IMG/VR virus record: IMGVR_UViG_3300036861_000589 | Span: 1 to 40,569 of that record | Strand: one strand, 5' to 3' | Source: a virus | Length of the DNA: 40,569 nt | Shown: piece by piece, positions 5,766 through 40,569 of the stretch | How positions within the stretch are numbered: the first letter of the stretch is position 1 | Layout: every line of letters starts with the position of its first letter | Notes under the pieces: model-generated | What the model was told of the DNA's origin: nothing | Databases searched by the model: none | The model's input: the letters and a program-made list of their open reading frames with translations, nothing else | Program-made: the position numbers and the translations under genes

Positions 5766-6089
5766 TTAATTAGTAGGGTGGGTTGGGGGACGCGGTGGGG
5801 CGGGCGCACGCACACCCTGAAGGCCGCGGATTGCGGTTGCAAGCTTTAGCGGCAAGCCATCGATGTCACCATCGTATACCCAGTCGAGCGTTACTCCGAA
5901 CGCGTCCTTAAGGTTCCGCACTTTGTCAACGCCGATGCCCTTCTTTCCGTCCTCCACCTCACCGAGATGATTGGCGAGCATCTGGGCTGCCAGAGCAAAG
6001 TCCTTCTTCGATAGCCCAAGGGCATCGCGGGTCAGCGTCAACCGCTGCCCAATGGCCTTTGAGGACCTGCCTATCCATGGCTCGCGCAT
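5766..6089 (-). CDS. XRE-family phage repressor (CI-like)
   Basis: 107 residues from the ATG at 6089. An HTH of the XRE type covers about residues 12-62: IGQRLTLTRDALGLSKKDFA, ANHLGEVEDGKKGIGV, then LKDAFGVTLDWVYDGD, which closes the fold. The C-terminus is a short Pro-rich tail. There is no S24 (LexA-like) self-cleavage domain, so induction by RecA-driven autocleavage is unlikely. Longer in-frame starts would run through the operator at 6152-6164, so I rejected them; no clear ribosome site precedes 6089. It is divergent from the Cro-like gene, with one operator between them and two more at P-left. It probably keeps lysogeny by closing both early promoters. Confidence 0.83.
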   Translation of the reverse strand: MREPWIGRSSKAIGQRLTLTRDALGLSKKDFALAAQMLANHLGEVEDGKKGIGVDKVRNLKDAFGVTLDWVYDGDIDGLPLKLATAIRGLQGVRAPAPPRPPTHPTN

Positions 6090-6142
6090 ATGCGAGTGAA
6101 TAAAATTACTTGGAAGCAATATCCATTCTCTGGCTATCGCCC

Positions 6143-6171
6143 TTGACGGTGTCACCGCCAGTGACTTAAGC
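6143..6171 (+). promoter_or_regulatory. Rightward early promoter P-right
   Basis: TTGACG (6143-6148) and TTAAGC (6166-6171) are separated by 17 bases, with an operator in the spacer. The sequence from operator to TCGC matches P-left almost base for base. The start site would fall about 2-5 bases before the ATG at 6181, so the Cro-like mRNA is probably leaderless. Confidence 0.75.
6152..6164. promoter_or_regulatory. Operator O-R
   Basis: TCACCGCCAGTGA within GTCAC-N5-GTGAC, a dyad in the P-right spacer and also upstream of the divergent repressor gene. It is one of three such sites. Binding here would shut P-right and could affect repressor transcription in the opposite direction. Confidence 0.8.
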
Positions 6172-6180
6172 TCGCTAATC

Positions 6181-6438
6181 ATGCAAAGCAAGTCTTCGGG
6201 CATCAGGCTAACCACCGTCGCTGAAATCGTGAGTGCATTCGGAGGGCCAGCAGCAATGGGTGCATGGGCGGGCATCTCTGGCCCAGCGGTCAGCAACTGG
6301 ATCGCACGCGGCTGGATCCCGCCCGACCGATATCTCGCCGTAAGCGAAGCCCTGCATCGTAAAGGGTTCGAGGCCCCCCCCGAAATCTTCCGCCAAGTCC
6401 CAGTGAAGGCTGAAAATCACACGGCGGCCGATGCTTAA
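6181..6438 (+). CDS. Cro-like regulator
   Basis: 85 residues from the ATG at 6181, which lies only 9 bases past the -10 box of P-right and has no ribosome site. The HTH covers about residues 11-50: VAEIVSAFGGPAAMGAWAG, ISGPAVSNWIARGWIPPDR, YLAVSEAL. This is the short Cro/YdaS-like form found as the first rightward gene of many lambdoid phages of proteobacteria, opposite an XRE repressor. It would bind the same TCAC-N5-GTGA operators and favour lytic growth. A later start would remove HTH helices. Confidence 0.83.
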   Translation: MQSKSSGIRLTTVAEIVSAFGGPAAMGAWAGISGPAVSNWIARGWIPPDRYLAVSEALHRKGFEAPPEIFRQVPVKAENHTAADA

Positions 6439-6948: not shown

Positions 6949-7446
6949 CTGACCATTCGCATCGAGCTTATCGGGCCTCCGCGTGGCAAGGGGCGTCCGC
7001 GTTTCAGCACACGCAACGGCTTTGCCATGGCCCATCCCGACAAGAAGAGCGCGACCTACGAGGGCATGCTGCGATATGCGGCCCAGCAAGCCATGGCAGG
7101 GCGGGCGCCCCTCGATGGCGCTCTGCTGCTGGAGGTGCTGGCCGAACTGCCGATCCCAGCAAGCTGGAGCAAGAAGCATCAGCGCGACGCCGCAGCGGGC
7201 CTCATCCGGCCGACGACGCGCAGCGCCGCGGACCTCGATAACATCATCAAATCCGTAGACGCACTGAATGAGGTCGTTTGGCGCGACGATGCGCAGATCG
7301 TTTCCATCCGTGCACTGAAAGTCTACAGCACACGGCCGCGGCTGGTGCTCATCGTGGAGCCGGTGCAGCGCGAGCTGCAAGCACAGCTCGACGAGCTCAG
7401 GGCGCCGCGCGCCGCGGCCCAAGCGGAGGGGGTGATGATAGCGTGA
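6949..7446 (+). CDS. rusA: RusA-like Holliday junction resolvase
   Basis: 165 residues if translation starts at CTG 6949. RusA dimers cut four-way DNA junctions left by recombination and replication. Conserved residues are present: the N-terminal strand ending in GKGRPRF (residues 13-19), DLDN (Asp95 and Asp97) and the WRDDAQI stretch (Asp113/114), matching the catalytic aspartates of the family. Starting at the first ATG (7027) would remove the conserved N-terminal strand and the GKGRPRF loop. No ATG, GTG or TTG lies in frame between the AGGAGG site (about 6934) and CTG 6949. The real start is therefore probably non-AUG, or the sequence has an error here. The gene overlaps the possible GTG start of the GcrA-like gene. 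Confidence 0.8.
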   Translation: MTIRIELIGPPRGKGRPRFSTRNGFAMAHPDKKSATYEGMLRYAAQQAMAGRAPLDGALLLEVLAELPIPASWSKKHQRDAAAGLIRPTTRSAADLDNIIKSVDALNEVVWRDDAQIVSIRALKVYSTRPRLVLIVEPVQRELQAQLDELRAPRAAAQAEGVMIA

Positions 7447-7448
7447 TA

Positions 7449-7889
7449 ATGTTCTGGACACCCGAGGAGCAGGCCGCGCTCGCGCAGCTCGTGGCGCAGG
7501 GGTATTCCGCCAGCCAGATCGCCCGGCGGATGGATACGACCAGAAGTGCGATCATCGGCAGATGCGGGCGCACCAACATCAAGCTTCGGGGCGGGTGCGC
7601 CGACAACAACCCATGCCGCCGGGACGCCGTGAAGCGCGCCAAGAAGCCCAAGCTCGTCAAGGCCAGCAAGCTCCCCCCCCCATCAGGCGTCCCGGCGTCA
7701 CTGCCCAGCGTGGGGCCCGTATCCAGCAATGACCTCGGTCTCCGGCAGTGCCGCTACATCGGCGAGCGGCCGGAGCTGCTGATGCTGGATACGCCCGTCT
7801 ACTGCGGCCAGGCCACCGACGGGGGTTCGTGGTGCCCTGAGCACCGCGCACGGGTCCTGGCGCCGGCGCGGCCGACGGGGACAGCGTGA
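7449..7889 (+). CDS. GcrA-like transcription regulator
   Basis: 146 residues from the ATG at 7449; the GTG at 7443 overlaps the rusA stop and is closer to the GGAGGG site, so it could also be used. The N-terminus FWTPEEQAALAQLVAQGYSA and SQIARRMDTTRSAIIGR is the GcrA HTH. The C-terminus has QCRYIGERPE, then YCGQATDGGSWCPEHRAR, the C-x-W/Y...FCG...YC-x-H pattern of the family. In alphaproteobacteria GcrA binds sigma70-RNA polymerase and methylated GANTC sites to control cell-cycle genes. A phage copy could redirect host polymerase or read DNA methylation state; this is inference. Confidence 0.82.
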   Translation: MFWTPEEQAALAQLVAQGYSASQIARRMDTTRSAIIGRCGRTNIKLRGGCADNNPCRRDAVKRAKKPKLVKASKLPPPSGVPASLPSVGPVSSNDLGLRQCRYIGERPELLMLDTPVYCGQATDGGSWCPEHRARVLAPARPTGTA

Positions 7890-7902: not shown

Positions 7903-9960
7903 ATGGATGGAGGGCGCGGCGCTGGACTGGCAGAGATCGCCGCGGCCCTTGGTGGAGCCCAGCGCACGGGCAACGGCTACGACTGCCGCTGTCCCGCGCA
8001 CGAGGACCGCACCGCGTCGCTGTCCATCAGCCAAGCCGAGGACGGACGGCTGTTGGTGTATTGCCATGCTGGGTGCACCTGGGAGTCCGTGCGCGACGCT
8101 TTGCAGGCCCGGGGGCTCCTGCCGGGGGAAGGCGCGCGACGACCAGCTGCGCCGCCTCCGGCAGGACGACGCATCGTCGCCGCGTACGACTACCTCGACG
8201 AGGCAGGCGAGCTCGTCTTCCAAGTCGTCCGCTTCGAGCCCAAGGATTTCCGCCAGCGCCGGGGCCCGCGGCCCGGCGACGACCCCGCCACCGTGCGCGA
8301 CGGCTGGGTGTGGTCCGTCAAGGGCCTGCGCGTCATTCCCTACCGGTTGCCCGAGGTCCTGGAGGCGATCGCCAGCAGCCGGCCCGTCCTCATCGTCGAG
8401 GGCGAAAAGGACGCCGACGGCCTGGCGCGGCTCGGCGTCGCGGCTACATGCAACGCCGGCGGCGCCGGCAAATGGCGCAAGGCGCACGCTGAGGCCCTGC
8501 GTGGAGCCGATGTCGTCGTCCTGCCGGACAATGACGACGCCGGGCGCAAGCACGCGCACGAGGTGGCAGTGTCTCTCGCCGGCGTCGCCGCCCGCGTGCG
8601 GATGCTCGATCTGCCGGGGCTCCCACTCAAGGGCGACGTGTCGGATTGGCTCGCGGCCGGGCACGCGGCAGACGAGCTGTGGCGGCTCGTCGACGGGGCG
8701 CGGGAATGGAGCGCGGTTGCGGCAAAAACAGAATGGCAAGGCGCCCTCATCAGGACGCCAACCGGCCGAGCCAAGGCGCTCCTCGCCAATGCCGTGCTTG
8801 CCCTCAGGTCGGCACCAGAGTGGCATGGTGTGCTCGCCTACAACCAGCTCAAACTCGTTATCGAGATCGCCACCGCACCGCCGTGGCACACGCGCGCAGC
8901 GTGGCGGCGGCGCGCATGGACCGACAACGACGACGTGCGTGCTGCCGAGTGGCTGCAACGCGCTGGAATCGAGGTCGGCCACAGCGTCGCGAATGCTGCC
9001 GTGGCCGAGGCAGCCGAGCACAACGCTTATCATCCCGTGCGCAGCTACCTCGGCGGGCTCGCGTGGGACGGCATCGAGCGTATCCGGCATTTCGCTACCG
9101 ATAGCCTGGGGGCGGAGGACGACCCGCTCGTGCAGGCGATCTCCGCGGCCATGCTCATCGCAGCGGTGGCTCGCGCCATGACGCCAGGATGCAAGGCGGA
9201 CAACATCCCTGTGCTGGAGGGCCCCCAGGGCAAGCTCAAGAGCATGGCGATCGAGACGCTCTTCGGCCGCGACTGGTTCTCGGACGATCTGTCGGACCTG
9301 GGCACCAAGGACTCGGCCATGCAGGTAGCGCGGGCGTGGGTTGTGGAGATATCCGAGCTGGCGGGCATGAGCCGCACCGAGGTGGAGCGCATCAAGGCGT
9401 TCGCCAGCCGCCGCGTCGACATCTTCCGGCCGCCCTATGGCCGCGCCCTGATAGAACAGCCGCGCCAGTCGGTGCTGTGGGGCACAACGAACCAGGACGC
9501 CTACCTCAAGGACGAGACGGGAGGGCGCCGCTTCTGGCCGGTCGCGTGCGGCACCATCGACGTCAAGCGCTTGGAGCGCGAGCGCGACCAGCTATGGGGC
9601 GAGGCCGCGCACGCCTGGCAACAGGGCGAGCCGTGGTGGCTGGCTGACCCAGGGACCGTGCAAATGGCGCGCAAGGTGCAGGAGAGCCGCCAAATGGCCG
9701 ACGCATGGGACGAGCGCGTCGCAGACTACATCCACAACAAGGGGGACATATCGATTGGGGAGGTTCTGCAGTTCGCGCTCGTGATCGAGCCGGGCAAATG
9801 GAGCCAGGCCGATCAGAACCGTGTGGCCCGGTATCTACGAGGCAAGGGCTGGACGCGGCGCAATACCGGCCCGAAAGGCCGGCAGAAGTGGCGCTATTTC
9901 TCGCCTCGCGCCGGCCCGGAGGAGCCGGTATTCCAGTCCGAACTGGAATACCGAGAGTGA
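7903..9960 (+). CDS. Primase-helicase: CHC2 zinc, TOPRIM and VirE-type ATPase
   Basis: 685 residues. Residues 28-58 form a zinc-binding primase head (CRCPAHEDR and CHAGC). Residues 162-215 form the TOPRIM domain with VEGEKDADGL (Glu167) and VLPDNDDAG (Asp209-212). Residues about 385-620 form a VirE-like ATPase with Walker A EGPQGKLKS (439-447), Walker B VVEISEL and later GTTNQDAYL and GGRRFWPV. It would unwind DNA and lay primers at the phage origin. The last codons and the following bases hold the ACTGGAATACCG iterons, so the gene and its likely origin adjoin. The start at 7903 follows the GcrA-like gene by 13 bases; its ribosome site is weak. Confidence 0.9.
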   Translation: MDGGRGAGLAEIAAALGGAQRTGNGYDCRCPAHEDRTASLSISQAEDGRLLVYCHAGCTWESVRDALQARGLLPGEGARRPAAPPPAGRRIVAAYDYLDEAGELVFQVVRFEPKDFRQRRGPRPGDDPATVRDGWVWSVKGLRVIPYRLPEVLEAIASSRPVLIVEGEKDADGLARLGVAATCNAGGAGKWRKAHAEALRGADVVVLPDNDDAGRKHAHEVAVSLAGVAARVRMLDLPGLPLKGDVSDWLAAGHAADELWRLVDGAREWSAVAAKTEWQGALIRTPTGRAKALLANAVLALRSAPEWHGVLAYNQLKLVIEIATAPPWHTRAAWRRRAWTDNDDVRAAEWLQRAGIEVGHSVANAAVAEAAEHNAYHPVRSYLGGLAWDGIERIRHFATDSLGAEDDPLVQAISAAMLIAAVARAMTPGCKADNIPVLEGPQGKLKSMAIETLFGRDWFSDDLSDLGTKDSAMQVARAWVVEISELAGMSRTEVERIKAFASRRVDIFRPPYGRALIEQPRQSVLWGTTNQDAYLKDETGGRRFWPVACGTIDVKRLERERDQLWGEAAHAWQQGEPWWLADPGTVQMARKVQESRQMADAWDERVADYIHNKGDISIGEVLQFALVIEPGKWSQADQNRVARYLRGKGWTRRNTGPKGRQKWRYFSPRAGPEEPVFQSELEYRE

Positions 9961-10142
9961 CTGGAATACCGCAACCCACTGAAAGGGCGGGCGGTATTCC
10001 AGTATTCCAGTCCTTCCAGTCGTGCCCCCTATAGCCCTAGGGCTGAACACTACAACTTATATATATATACTGGAATACTGGAATACCGGCATACCGGCAT
10101 ATCAAATCAATGACTTACGTGTATGCCAGTCGGTATTCCAGT
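9926..10142. repeat. ACTGGAATACCG iteron cluster, probable replication origin
   Basis: ACTGGAATACCG or its complement CGGTATTCCAGT occurs at 9926, 9942, 9960, 9992, 10077 and 10131, with partial copies at 10001, 10012 and 10069. The first two form a perfect 12-bp inverted repeat with a 4-base spacer inside the end of the primase gene. The cluster also holds a 12-bp palindrome AGCCCTAGGGCT (10033-10044), an AT-only run of about 17 bases (10052-10068) unlike the GC-rich surroundings, and two copies of CCGGCATA (10086-10100). Iterons beside an AT-rich box directly after a primase-helicase gene fit a replication origin. Confidence 0.75.
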
Positions 10143-10190
10143 CTTGATGACCGAAATACGTGTGAAGTCAGCAACAGGGAACAGCAGCCA

Positions 10191-10355
10191 ATGAGCAACA
10201 TCAAAGGAAACGGGAAAGGGGGAGTAGAGAAATATAGGACTGCTGGAGTCGGGATTAATCACAGGCCCGTGAAAACGAGCCCGGTGAAGCGCCGCAAGCC
10301 GACGCGCAAAACCATGCGCGACTGGCAGCGGCCGCTGGAGGACCGCTGCGGATGA
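10191..10355 (+). CDS. Small basic protein
   Basis: 54 residues from the ATG at 10191, with AGGGA upstream at slightly long spacing. An in-frame ATG at 10110 would start inside the iteron cluster and is less likely. The protein is strongly basic (KTSPVKRRKPTRKTMRDW), which suggests binding to nucleic acid. It overlaps the next start by 4 bp (ATGA). No family is recognised. Confidence 0.55.
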   Translation: MSNIKGNGKGGVEKYRTAGVGINHRPVKTSPVKRRKPTRKTMRDWQRPLEDRCG

Positions 10356-10819
10356 GCCTGCGCATGAAGCAGAAGCGCATGCGATCGCTGTGGAACCGCG
10401 GCGACATGAGCTATGCCGACATTGCCGCGCGCACCGGGCGCTCGATCGCCGAGGTGGCCGAGCACTTGGAGGCGCAGCCGGGATACCCCGACCTCATTGG
10501 CAACGCCGTGCCGGCGCAGTGCGTCATTTGTGGCGCCATGTACGGGCAGAGCCATAAGCTCCAGCGATACTGCTCTGATGAGTGCTGGGGTGAGGCGCGC
10601 CGCCGTACCTGGTATCTCCATGCCTGCCGCAAGAGGGGCGCGCCAATGGACGGTGCAACCCCGTCAGCTCGTCAGCGGCGCTCCCCCGGGTTATCACGCC
10701 AAAACGCGGCTGATACGAAGATCGTGCGAGCGGCAAGGCGAGAGGCACAGATACGACGTACGACGCTTGAAACCGTACTGAGCGCTTGGGGATTCGAGGC
10801 AACGAGGAGAAGTCCATGA
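10352..10819 (+). CDS. Putative HTH and zinc-finger protein
   Basis: 155 residues. The N-terminal 40 residues look like a short HTH (RMRSLWNRGDMSYADIAART, then GRSIAEVAEHLEA). Residues about 57-79 carry a C-x2-C...C-x3-C treble-clef-like pattern, CVICGAMYGQSHKLQRYCSD followed by EC. The C-terminus is basic. It probably binds DNA; a specific role cannot be named. The start overlaps the previous gene, and its stop overlaps the next start. Confidence 0.68.
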   Translation: MSLRMKQKRMRSLWNRGDMSYADIAARTGRSIAEVAEHLEAQPGYPDLIGNAVPAQCVICGAMYGQSHKLQRYCSDECWGEARRRTWYLHACRKRGAPMDGATPSARQRRSPGLSRQNAADTKIVRAARREAQIRRTTLETVLSAWGFEATRRSP

Positions 10820-11274
10820 CCCCTGATCAACACACGAAACTGCGCCACATCGTCGATCGCTATGTGACGCTGAATGATCAGATCAAGAGCGCGAAGGACG
10901 AGCAGAAGGAGCTCGCCGATGCTGCCAAGGGCGAGCTTGGCATCGAGCCCAAGGTCACAAAGCAGCTCGCCAAGGAGACGGCCTGGAACGAGCTGGAGCG
11001 CGCTGCGCAGCTCGGCTTGGAGCGGCAGCTCGACGAGTGCCGCCTTGCTCTGGGTCTGCTCGACGGTACGCCGCTCGGAGAGGCCGCCGTGGGTGCAGCT
11101 GCCCTTGGCGGCGGCTGGCACCACAGCGCCGACGGCACGCGCAGCGATGACGGCCACGGCGTCGCTGAGCCCAAGCGCGGTCGCGGCCGGCCGAAAGGTA
11201 GCCGCAACAGGCCGAAGGTGCGCGATGAGTTCGAGACCGCCGCGCCGCCGTCCATCCCGGATTGGCCGCAGTAG
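10816..11274 (+). CDS. Coiled-coil protein with AT-hook-like tail (GapR-like?)
   Basis: 152 residues from the ATG at 10816 (AGGAGA upstream, 4-bp overlap with the previous gene). The first 85 residues are a charged helix (LRHIVDRYVTLNDQIKSAKD, then EQKELADAAKGELGIEPKV), reminiscent of the DUF2312/GapR nucleoid proteins of alphaproteobacteria, though the match is loose. The C-terminus holds RGRGRPKGSRNRPK, an AT-hook-like motif that would bind the minor groove. It may organise DNA or affect supercoiling during phage replication. An alternative is an unrelated small DNA-binding protein. Confidence 0.62.
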   Translation: MTPDQHTKLRHIVDRYVTLNDQIKSAKDEQKELADAAKGELGIEPKVTKQLAKETAWNELERAAQLGLERQLDECRLALGLLDGTPLGEAAVGAAALGGGWHHSADGTRSDDGHGVAEPKRGRGRPKGSRNRPKVRDEFETAAPPSIPDWPQ

Positions 11275-11285
11275 CTCCCAGGAAA

Positions 11286-11378
11286 GCCGCTGGCGGGCAA
11301 ATTGTGGGCGGCAGGCATTCGGGGTGAGGCCGGCGCAGAAAACCCGCCAGCGGCCTCCGTATTGGGTTTTTGGCGGTT
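11286..11378 (+). promoter_or_regulatory. Leader with competing hairpins before the NusG-like gene
   Basis: GCCGCTGGCGGG (11286-11297) is perfectly complementary to CCCGCCAGCGGC (11343-11354). AAAACCC (11339-11345) is also complementary to GGGTTTT (11364-11370), and CCGCCA (11344-11349) to TGGCGG (11371-11376). These pairings exclude each other, and the second ends in a T-rich stretch. This resembles an attenuator or an autoregulated leader. No RNA family is recognised. Confidence 0.5.
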
Positions 11379-11403
11379 GGAAGGAACAGGCAGGCTTGAC
11401 GGG

Positions 11404-12012
11404 ATGTCGGATAACCAGCTATGTGCAGAAACAGCCAGCGCGTCCCACGACCAAGCACATAAACACGGGGCGCCGGAGCACTCCGTCGATAACCGCGCAG
11501 GCTGGTACATACTGCGCTGCGGAGCAGGTCTCGATTTCCCCGCCGCGATGGCGGTGCGAAATGCGGGATGGAATGTATTTTGCGCGCGTGAAAAGAAATG
11601 GCGCGTCTCGCTCTGGCGCCGCAAGCCGAGCGAGGGCGAGGCTGATTACCCGCGCTTCCCCGGCTATCTGTTCGTGCATGTGACGCCGCCCGCCTGGCCC
11701 GACTTGAGCGCCTGGCCGCTCTCGGCCTACCTGTCCGGTGTCCTGACGATGGGCGGTCGTCCCGTCCCGCTCGCGGCCAGGGAAATCGACCGACTCAGGG
11801 CCGAGGACGGCACGAATGTGCCGCACACAGACAGCGTGCCAGTGCATCGCGCCTTCGCTGCCGGTCAGCGTGCCCTAGTCCTCGCCGGCGCCTTCTGCGA
11901 TTTCGTCGCGACGATCGAATTTATCGACGAGGCGGGGGCGCATATTGCGGTGCCGATCTGCGGGAAGCCCGCCGACGTGACGTTGCCGCTCACCTGGCTA
12001 CGGCACGCTTAG
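11404..12012 (+). CDS. NusG-like transcription (anti)termination factor
   Basis: 202 residues from the ATG at 11404; the start is uncertain because no strong ribosome site precedes it. Residues about 33-95 have the NusG N-terminal pattern: GWYILRCGAGLDFPAAMAVR, GWNVFCAREKKWR and YPRFPGYLFVHV. The C-terminal part (about 150-202) has the spacing of a KOW-like barrel (FAAGQRALVLAGAFCDFVAT). Such proteins ride on RNA polymerase and help it read through terminators. It sits between the replication and late regions, behind a dyad-rich leader, which suits a late-gene switch. Phage NusG paralogues may also serve only their own operon. Confidence 0.8.
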   Translation: MSDNQLCAETASASHDQAHKHGAPEHSVDNRAGWYILRCGAGLDFPAAMAVRNAGWNVFCAREKKWRVSLWRRKPSEGEADYPRFPGYLFVHVTPPAWPDLSAWPLSAYLSGVLTMGGRPVPLAAREIDRLRAEDGTNVPHTDSVPVHRAFAAGQRALVLAGAFCDFVATIEFIDEAGAHIAVPICGKPADVTLPLTWLRHA

Positions 12013-39637: not shown

Positions 39638-40569
39638 CTACGTCCTCACCGCCTCCCTGAACTTGCCCGCCGGCCGCGCGTAGCTTGCCGCCACCGCCGC
39701 GTGCGGCGTCGCTGCCTCCGGGTGCGCCCCCAGCAGGAACTCGCGTCGCGTCCCGTCCGGCTCCAGCGAGCCGTTGACGACGTGGACGTAGCGCACGTCG
39801 TGGATGTCGTAGAGCTTGCGCGGGCGGCCGTGCTCGGTATCCTCCGCGAGTAGCGTGGCACCCATGGCCTCCAGCATCGCATTGGGGCCGTGCACGTCGG
39901 CATATATTTCCATGAGGATGCGGCGCATCTCGGCATTGGGTTCGCTCAGCACGTCGGCGGCCAAGCGGACGTGGCGCTGCTCGATGTATTCGGCGGGGAT
40001 GCGCTGGCCGTGCCAGTGATAGAGCCTCCAGCCGTCGCGCCAGACGTGAGAGGGGCCGTCAGCGCAGTGCGGGCGACGCAGAGGGTCTATCTTGAGTACA
40101 GCCGGCCGATCGCTGACGATGCAGAAATCAGCATGCATCCAGCGCCAGGAGCCGTGGACTGCCGCGGCTTCGTAGTGCTGCCACTTGGCGTAAACGGGCA
40201 GATCGAGCTTCGCGATGTGCCGGAAGAAAGACAAGAAGGCGCACCACGCGCTCCAGTGATTGCCCCCATTGCGTATCAACCACGCTTTGCGCGCGCAGCC
40301 CACCAGAAACGAGGTGTCGCCGAAGTGATCTGCAACGCCTATCGCCCACCCGTCCGGCAGCGCGCCGTATCGACGCGTGGCGGCGTCCGTGGCGGCGCCC
40401 GTGGCGGCGTCCGTGGCGTCGCGCGTGGCGTCGTCCGTGGCGTCGCGCGTGGCGGCGCCCGTGGCGGCGTACGTGGCGGCGTACGTGGCGGCGTCCGTGG
40501 CGGCGCCCGTGGCGTCGCGCGTGGCGGCGCGCGTGGCGGCGCGCGTGGCGGCGTCCGTGGCGGCGGGCG
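39638..40569 (-). CDS. DUF6745-like tetrapeptide-repeat protein, C-terminal part (cut by window end)
   Basis: From the TAG at 39638 this frame is open to the window end, through 15 repeat units, and continues as the gene part at 503-1. After the Thr-X-Ala-Ala repeats come RRYGALPDGWAIGVADHFGD, TSFLVGCARKAWLIRNGG, SAWCAFLSFFRHIAKLDLPV, then the DUF6745 core: VSDRPAVLKIDPLRRPHCAD, GPSHVWRDGWRLYHWHGQRI and VVNGSLEPDGTRREFLLG. The whole protein would have about 478 residues with the repeats as found. A GTG within this part (40303) would lose the repeats and is not the real start. Function unknown. The direct join of the two window ends shifts the frame by one base (see findings). Confidence 0.82.
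   Translation of the reverse strand, partial: PAATDAATRAATRAATRDATGAATDAATYAATYAATGAATRDATDDATRDATDAATGAATDAATRRYGALPDGWAIGVADHFGDTSFLVGCARKAWLIRNGGNHWSAWCAFLSFFRHIAKLDLPVYAKWQHYEAAAVHGSWRWMHADFCIVSDRPAVLKIDPLRRPHCADGPSHVWRDGWRLYHWHGQRIPAEYIEQRHVRLAADVLSEPNAEMRRILMEIYADVHGPNAMLEAMGATLLAEDTEHGRPRKLYDIHDVRYVHVVNGSLEPDGTRREFLLGAHPEAATPHAAVAASYARPAGKFREAVRT
40377..40569. repeat. 12-bp tandem repeat array, right part
   Basis: Fifteen exact 12-bp units of the form GTGGCGGCGNNC (some GTGGCGTCGNNC) start at 40377, followed by a last unit of 13 bases (40557-40569), one G longer. Variants TAC (Tyr in the protein) at 40461 and 40473 are unique to this side. Together with 1-240 there are at least 35 units. 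Confidence 0.96.

Follow-up and report, generated by a model that had tools for sequence, protein, structure and literature searches.

A compact cluster of short repeats in both orientations lies at the end of a primase-helicase gene in viral record IMGVR_UViG_3300036861_000589, the whole of which (40,569 bp, hereafter the window) was analysed. The cluster raises the question of whether it is a replication origin, which protein would read it, and whether such an origin is of a new kind.

The iteron array and its inverted core

A sequence-only reading of the window had described repeats in both orientations, and these were recovered at 9926–10142 as six exact and two one-mismatch copies of ACTGGAATACCG. 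With up to two mismatches this word matched 14 times in the window against 1.5 ± 1.3 expected, nine of these matches falling inside the 217-bp stretch 9926–10142, and no exact copy was found elsewhere in the 40,569-bp record. The 9-mer CTGGAATAC occurred 8 times in 9916–10150, whereas none of 2,000 dinucleotide shuffles contained it more than 3 times. The array starts about 34 nt ahead of the last base of the VapE stop codon and ends 182 nt past it.

The core of the array structure is a perfect 20-nt inverted repeat, 9992–10011/10069–10088, around a 57-bp spacer, which the earlier reading had overlooked. Within each arm the unit GTATTCCA occurs twice in tandem at an 8-bp step, and the two arms face each other: the left inner pair (9992–10011, minus strand) comprises an exact copy at 9992–10003 and a one-mismatch copy at 10000–10011, and the right inner pair (10069–10088, plus strand) comprises a one-mismatch copy at 10069–10080 and an exact copy at 10077–10088, followed by a degenerate third copy of the right arm with 2 mismatches (10085–10096, plus strand). 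Outer copies are present on both sides of this dyad. On the left are an exact copy within the last codons of the helicase gene (9926–9937, minus strand), its exact inverted partner 4 nt away (9942–9953, plus strand), which together make up the inverted pair already reported at the gene end, and an exact copy at the helicase stop codon (9960–9971, plus strand); on the right are a degenerate copy with 3 mismatches (10119–10130, minus strand) and an exact copy reversed with respect to the right inner pair (10131–10142, minus strand).

The spacer (10012–10068), the putative unwinding region, contains the 12-nt palindrome AGCCCTAGGGCT (10033–10044) and the beginning of an AT-only run (10057–10069), both as first described. 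Its AT content, measured between the 8-mer cores, is 0.54 against 0.34 for the window; its single-strand folding showed nothing notable and did not exceed that of shuffles. The DnaA box consensus TTWTNCACA had no match anywhere in the window, and GC skew showed no switch at 10 kb and was uninformative for an origin. A search of viral contigs for the exact 20-nt pattern gave zero matches, so the iteron word appears private to the lineage of the window.

A fused primase-helicase as candidate initiator

The gene upstream of the array (7903–9960, plus strand) encodes a 685-aa fused primase-helicase, the putative origin-binding initiator, in which a CHC2-like zinc motif, a TOPRIM domain of the DnaG primase type, a VapE-like AAA+ helicase and a C-terminal winged helix follow one another. 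Pfam matches were VapE-like_dom (5e-77) and Toprim_2 (1e-4), with Zn_ribbon_DnaG, the CHC2-like motif, below threshold. The only PDB homologue by sequence was 7pds (phmmer 7e-43; profile 8.5e-75), deposited under the title 'Similar to D. nodosus vapE'. Foldseek with the predicted structure likewise gave 7pds, described as 'PriRep1 with dsDNA', as best match (E 3e-30, TM(target) 0.74), with the SaPI5 primase-helicase further down the list, and the N-terminal half matched the DnaG core 1dd9. Going by this description, we take 7pds to be the Rep of SaPI1.

In the AF2 model of the protein (mean pLDDT 83), the winged helix spans residues 601–666 (H601–610, H618–625, H635–647, E651–655 and E662–666; mostly pLDDT 83–96), and its codons at 9703–9900 (plus strand) would encode the part of the protein that reads the iterons. 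The tail encoded by the iterons themselves, residues about 671–685, reached pLDDT of only 57–59, and this low confidence explains why repeats are able to overlap coding sequence. The earlier remark that repeats lie in coding sequence is thus correct but trivial, as the array starts in the codons of a low-confidence protein tail.

Two further features of this protein were observed. In the motif GPQGKLKS (residues 440–447, encoded at 9220–9243), a leucine instead of a glycine precedes the Walker A lysine, and the corresponding residue is not glycine in 95 of 169 VapE relatives (Arg 48, Lys 21, Leu 11, Met 8), so that a non-canonical P-loop is widespread among VapE helicases that retain their arrays. 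Moreover, the primase half (7903–8720) shares 51–62% identity with L007, L008, L011 and L012, and the helicase half (8720–9957) about 44%; closer relatives for the primase half than for the helicase half point to a mosaic fusion.

Arrays, dyads and winged helices among VapE relatives

Relatives were drawn from viral contigs, genome contigs and phage records, and 164 VapE loci were counted. With an array called wherever a single 8-mer was present four or more times in 380 nt at the VapE stop codon, 82 of the 164 loci carried one, against 20 of 2509 (0.8%) AT-matched control stretches of 380 nt; when both strands of the 500 nt around the stop were counted, an 8-mer occurred at least 4 times in 85/164 loci and in 32/2,445 control windows from the same loci. 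Array frequency was 41% at the VapE stop and at +200, 17–18% at +400/+600, and at most 4% at other positions between −4,000 and +4,000. In Pseudomonas-type phages, one small gene lying between helicase and array accounts for the second peak. About half of the relatives had no strong array exactly at the stop codon, and some showed none. In six loci (L027, L028, L030, L031, L036, L114) the array lay 1.8–3.5 kb downstream of VapE, separated from it by other genes, one of which in L114 is apparently UmuC-like; the arrangement looks like an insertion of cargo between the initiator and its origin.

The reach of the association was surveyed in 20 annotated records of phages or satellites, many of which are distant, and most had a significant array right behind VapE, including Bacteroides F2, Paenibacillus Bob, Staphylococcus MetB16, Corynebacterium CL31 and IME1320_01, Acutalibacter Fontainebleau, Hamiltonella phage APSE-6 and Fusobacterium phiPaco; five of the 20 (L019, L187, L188, L193, L196) had none that was significant at the sensitivity of the survey. 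Arrays follow the VapE gene through many different gene neighbourhoods, and those of Streptococcus and Corynebacterium phages sit among polymerase, primase and helicase genes. The latter observation, together with an array position that stays constant with respect to the VapE stop codon from one relative to the next, bears against a packaging (cos/pac) or partition site in place of a replication origin; the terminase genes of the window do start about 4 kb downstream, but such a site has hardly any probability left.

The anatomy of the arrays was compared in 67 dereplicated arrays with at least 5 copies. In 46 of them the two inner copies were inverted relative to the two opposite copies across the largest gap, where chance would give 1/8. 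The usual iteron step among the 67 was 8–10 bp, most spacers measured 50–115 bp, and spacer AT was 0.50 against 0.39, exceeding that of the locus in 59 arrays. The iteron words differ by lineage while the layout is kept. Units read toward the spacer mostly resemble TGTnCCA (TGTCCCAC, TGTTCCAG, TGTCACCA and TGACGCA, with GTATTCCA in the window), and this shared polarity in the sequences suggests a common loading direction. The relatives nearest by winged helix (L103, L106 and also L022) carry TGTTCCAG-type words, which are nearest to TATTCCAG of the window.

Iteron arrays often autoregulate too, and the array of the window lies between two genes with one promoter-like match (10044–10071) in its spacer; it could accordingly be read as an array of operators through which VapE or a phage regulator controls the replication operon or the genes from about 10191, with no replication start. 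The array, however, stands behind the initiator gene and not ahead of it, its exact word is absent elsewhere in the genome, and families whose words differ share with it an inverted dyad about an AT-rich spacer, a layout matching PICI origins that have been tested, so that purely regulatory function seems improbable.

Two natural pairs connect the word with the winged helix. In L051 and L047, 4.2 kb around the gene are 85% identical, the helicase domains are 97% identical and the spacer DNA is homologous; identity drops to just 50% in the second half of the winged helix, and both arms switch from TGTCCCACC to TGTCC(A/T)ACC as their unit. In L128 and L124, with helicase domains again 97% identical and spacers homologous, the second half of the winged helix shares 48% identity and the units change from CGGACGAC to CGGCGCAC on both sides. 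Since the words differ with the winged helix in both pairs and the spacer stays, the iterons change together with the winged helix. A matrix test over the relatives, in which repeat similarity tracked helicase-domain and C-terminal identity equally (partial rho 0.15 each), was for that reason not counted as winged-helix evidence; the natural pairs do single out the winged helix, although they are few and C-terminal codons adjoin the array.

The initiator had earlier been sought also among the small proteins encoded at 10191–11274, and these had no initiator-like or Rep family match, which leaves the VapE helicase as the likelier candidate. The array might still be a true origin whose binder is a different protein, for example the small one at 10352–10819 or the GapR-like one at 10786–11274, with VapE acting only as helicase; the similarities of these two proteins (HTH/zinc-ribbon and GapR-like) are weak and all below family cut-offs. 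The tie between array and VapE gene across many gene neighbourhoods, and the change of word alongside the VapE winged helix within near-identical pairs, make a separate binder very unlikely. The initiator is likely the VapE helicase, acting via its C-terminal winged helix.

Three lines of evidence strongly support the proposal that the iterons are a replication origin beside its initiator: comparison with about 165 relatives, the relatedness of that initiator to 7pds, and the arrangement of the repeats as a dyad. Judged from sequence comparison, the array is with high probability a phage replication origin of the SaPI/PICI rep-ori type, and the upstream VapE helicase its initiator. VapE, made from its operon, could bind the iterons through its C-terminal winged helices; since the two inner arms are inverted, a pair of hexamers would be loaded head-to-head, one to each side of the AT-rich spacer. 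The two opposed hexamers on the inner pairs might then melt the spacer and unwind outward, and the fused DnaG-type primase could prime the new strands. The outer copies, in turn, may serve to nucleate binding or to keep copy number in check.

For the wider family it is reasonably probable that VapE helicases of tailed phages and prophages in several phyla are self-loading origin binders, in which the C-terminal winged helix reads a private 8–10-bp word at a conserved inverted dyad where two hexamers are loaded in opposition, the word changing in step with the winged helix. If the self-loading reading is true, the origins of many uncharacterised phages would be readable from sequence, and natural variants would yield a protein–DNA recognition code, which natural winged-helix/iteron pairs make directly testable. 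Given that a paired layout with different words stands behind the helicase gene in many viruses, their origins should be findable from sequence, and the layout rule offers a sequence-only way to locate phage origins. VapE, a name taken from virulence, would be better described as an origin-binding initiator helicase.

Relation to known origins and the phage setting

PICI origins always contain two iteron sets around an AT-rich region, and PICI rep-ori segments drive plasmid replication (PMC6092414). In the SaPI/PICI layout the origin lies immediately 3′ of rep, with the two iteron sets around the AT-rich region (PMC6092414, PMC7581432), and SaPI Rep uses its C-terminal domain to recognise an iteron origin that directly follows the rep gene, apparently acting as two hexamers (PMC7581432). 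The window shares with SaPI/PICI rep-ori replicons (SaPI1, SaPIbov1, EcCICFT073) an origin immediately 3′ of an initiator-helicase gene, two iteron sets around an AT-rich region and an initiator homologous to 7pds PriRep1, so that this putative origin has every sequence-level feature of the SaPI/PICI rep-ori module. The origin had been called likely new, and its kind is not: this is the SaPI/PICI layout. The window nevertheless differs in that its module has a private iteron word with an 8-bp step and belongs to a temperate tailed phage that brings along head, portal, terminase, lysis and integrase genes of its own, and in that its helicase is fused to a DnaG/TOPRIM-type primase, whereas the primases of SaPIbov1 and SaPI5 are of AEP type (PMC7581432). 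Cch2 of SCCmec, with a putative origin, resembles the window in that it is a helicase of self-loading type and in that its C-terminal domain binds direct repeats which closely follow the gene (PMC7581432), but it belongs to the D5/Primase-C-term helicase family and has three 5-nt iterons, and the excerpts of PMC7581432 describe no tandem-pair dyad for it.

Iteron plasmid origins of the RepA/pi type also place repeated initiator sites beside an AT-rich region. Their iterons are direct, with a non-helicase Rep and host DnaA, whereas in the window the dyad is inverted, the initiator is a helicase and DnaA boxes are absent, and the gene beside the array encodes a VapE helicase, not a non-helicase Rep. 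The alpha protein of satellite phage P4, a fused primase, helicase and origin binder with short iterons, is comparable to the window by description, but P4 has separate ori and crr sites. P4 alpha is mentioned in PMC6092414.

A 2018 paper termed the rep-ori layout exclusive to PICIs, and within the literature collection searched no paper on VapE with origins or iterons was found. What is new is how widespread this layout is: temperate tailed phages have it, and it stands behind VapE genes in many prophage and viral contigs. Its occurrence in tailed phages and behind many VapE genes implies that satellites and ordinary phages share one replication module.

The record is that of a temperate tailed phage, with repressor (5766–6296), terminase, portal, major head, tail, lysis and integrase genes, and with RecT-like and exonuclease genes on the minus strand. 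At 40.6 kb and with all these virion, lysis and integrase genes, it does not fit the description of a PICI, a small satellite that depends on a helper phage to produce virions; the element is a phage, not a PICI. The module is flanked by a GcrA-like protein (7278–7889, Pfam 7e-10) and the weakly GapR-like protein at 10786–11274 (below cut-off), both resembling alphaproteobacterial cell-cycle/chromosome proteins and hinting at an alphaproteobacterial host, and a NusG-domain protein (11302–12012) matches a PHROG of transcription antiterminators. Both contig ends share a 12-bp tandem repeat (GTGGCGGCGCGC-like), in about 20 copies at 1–240 and about 16 at 40374–40569; stronger than the array, these repeats lack an iteron layout and were set aside as an origin candidate. 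The contig break probably lies inside one such repeat tract, so that the genome, though not flagged so, may be circular or terminally redundant.
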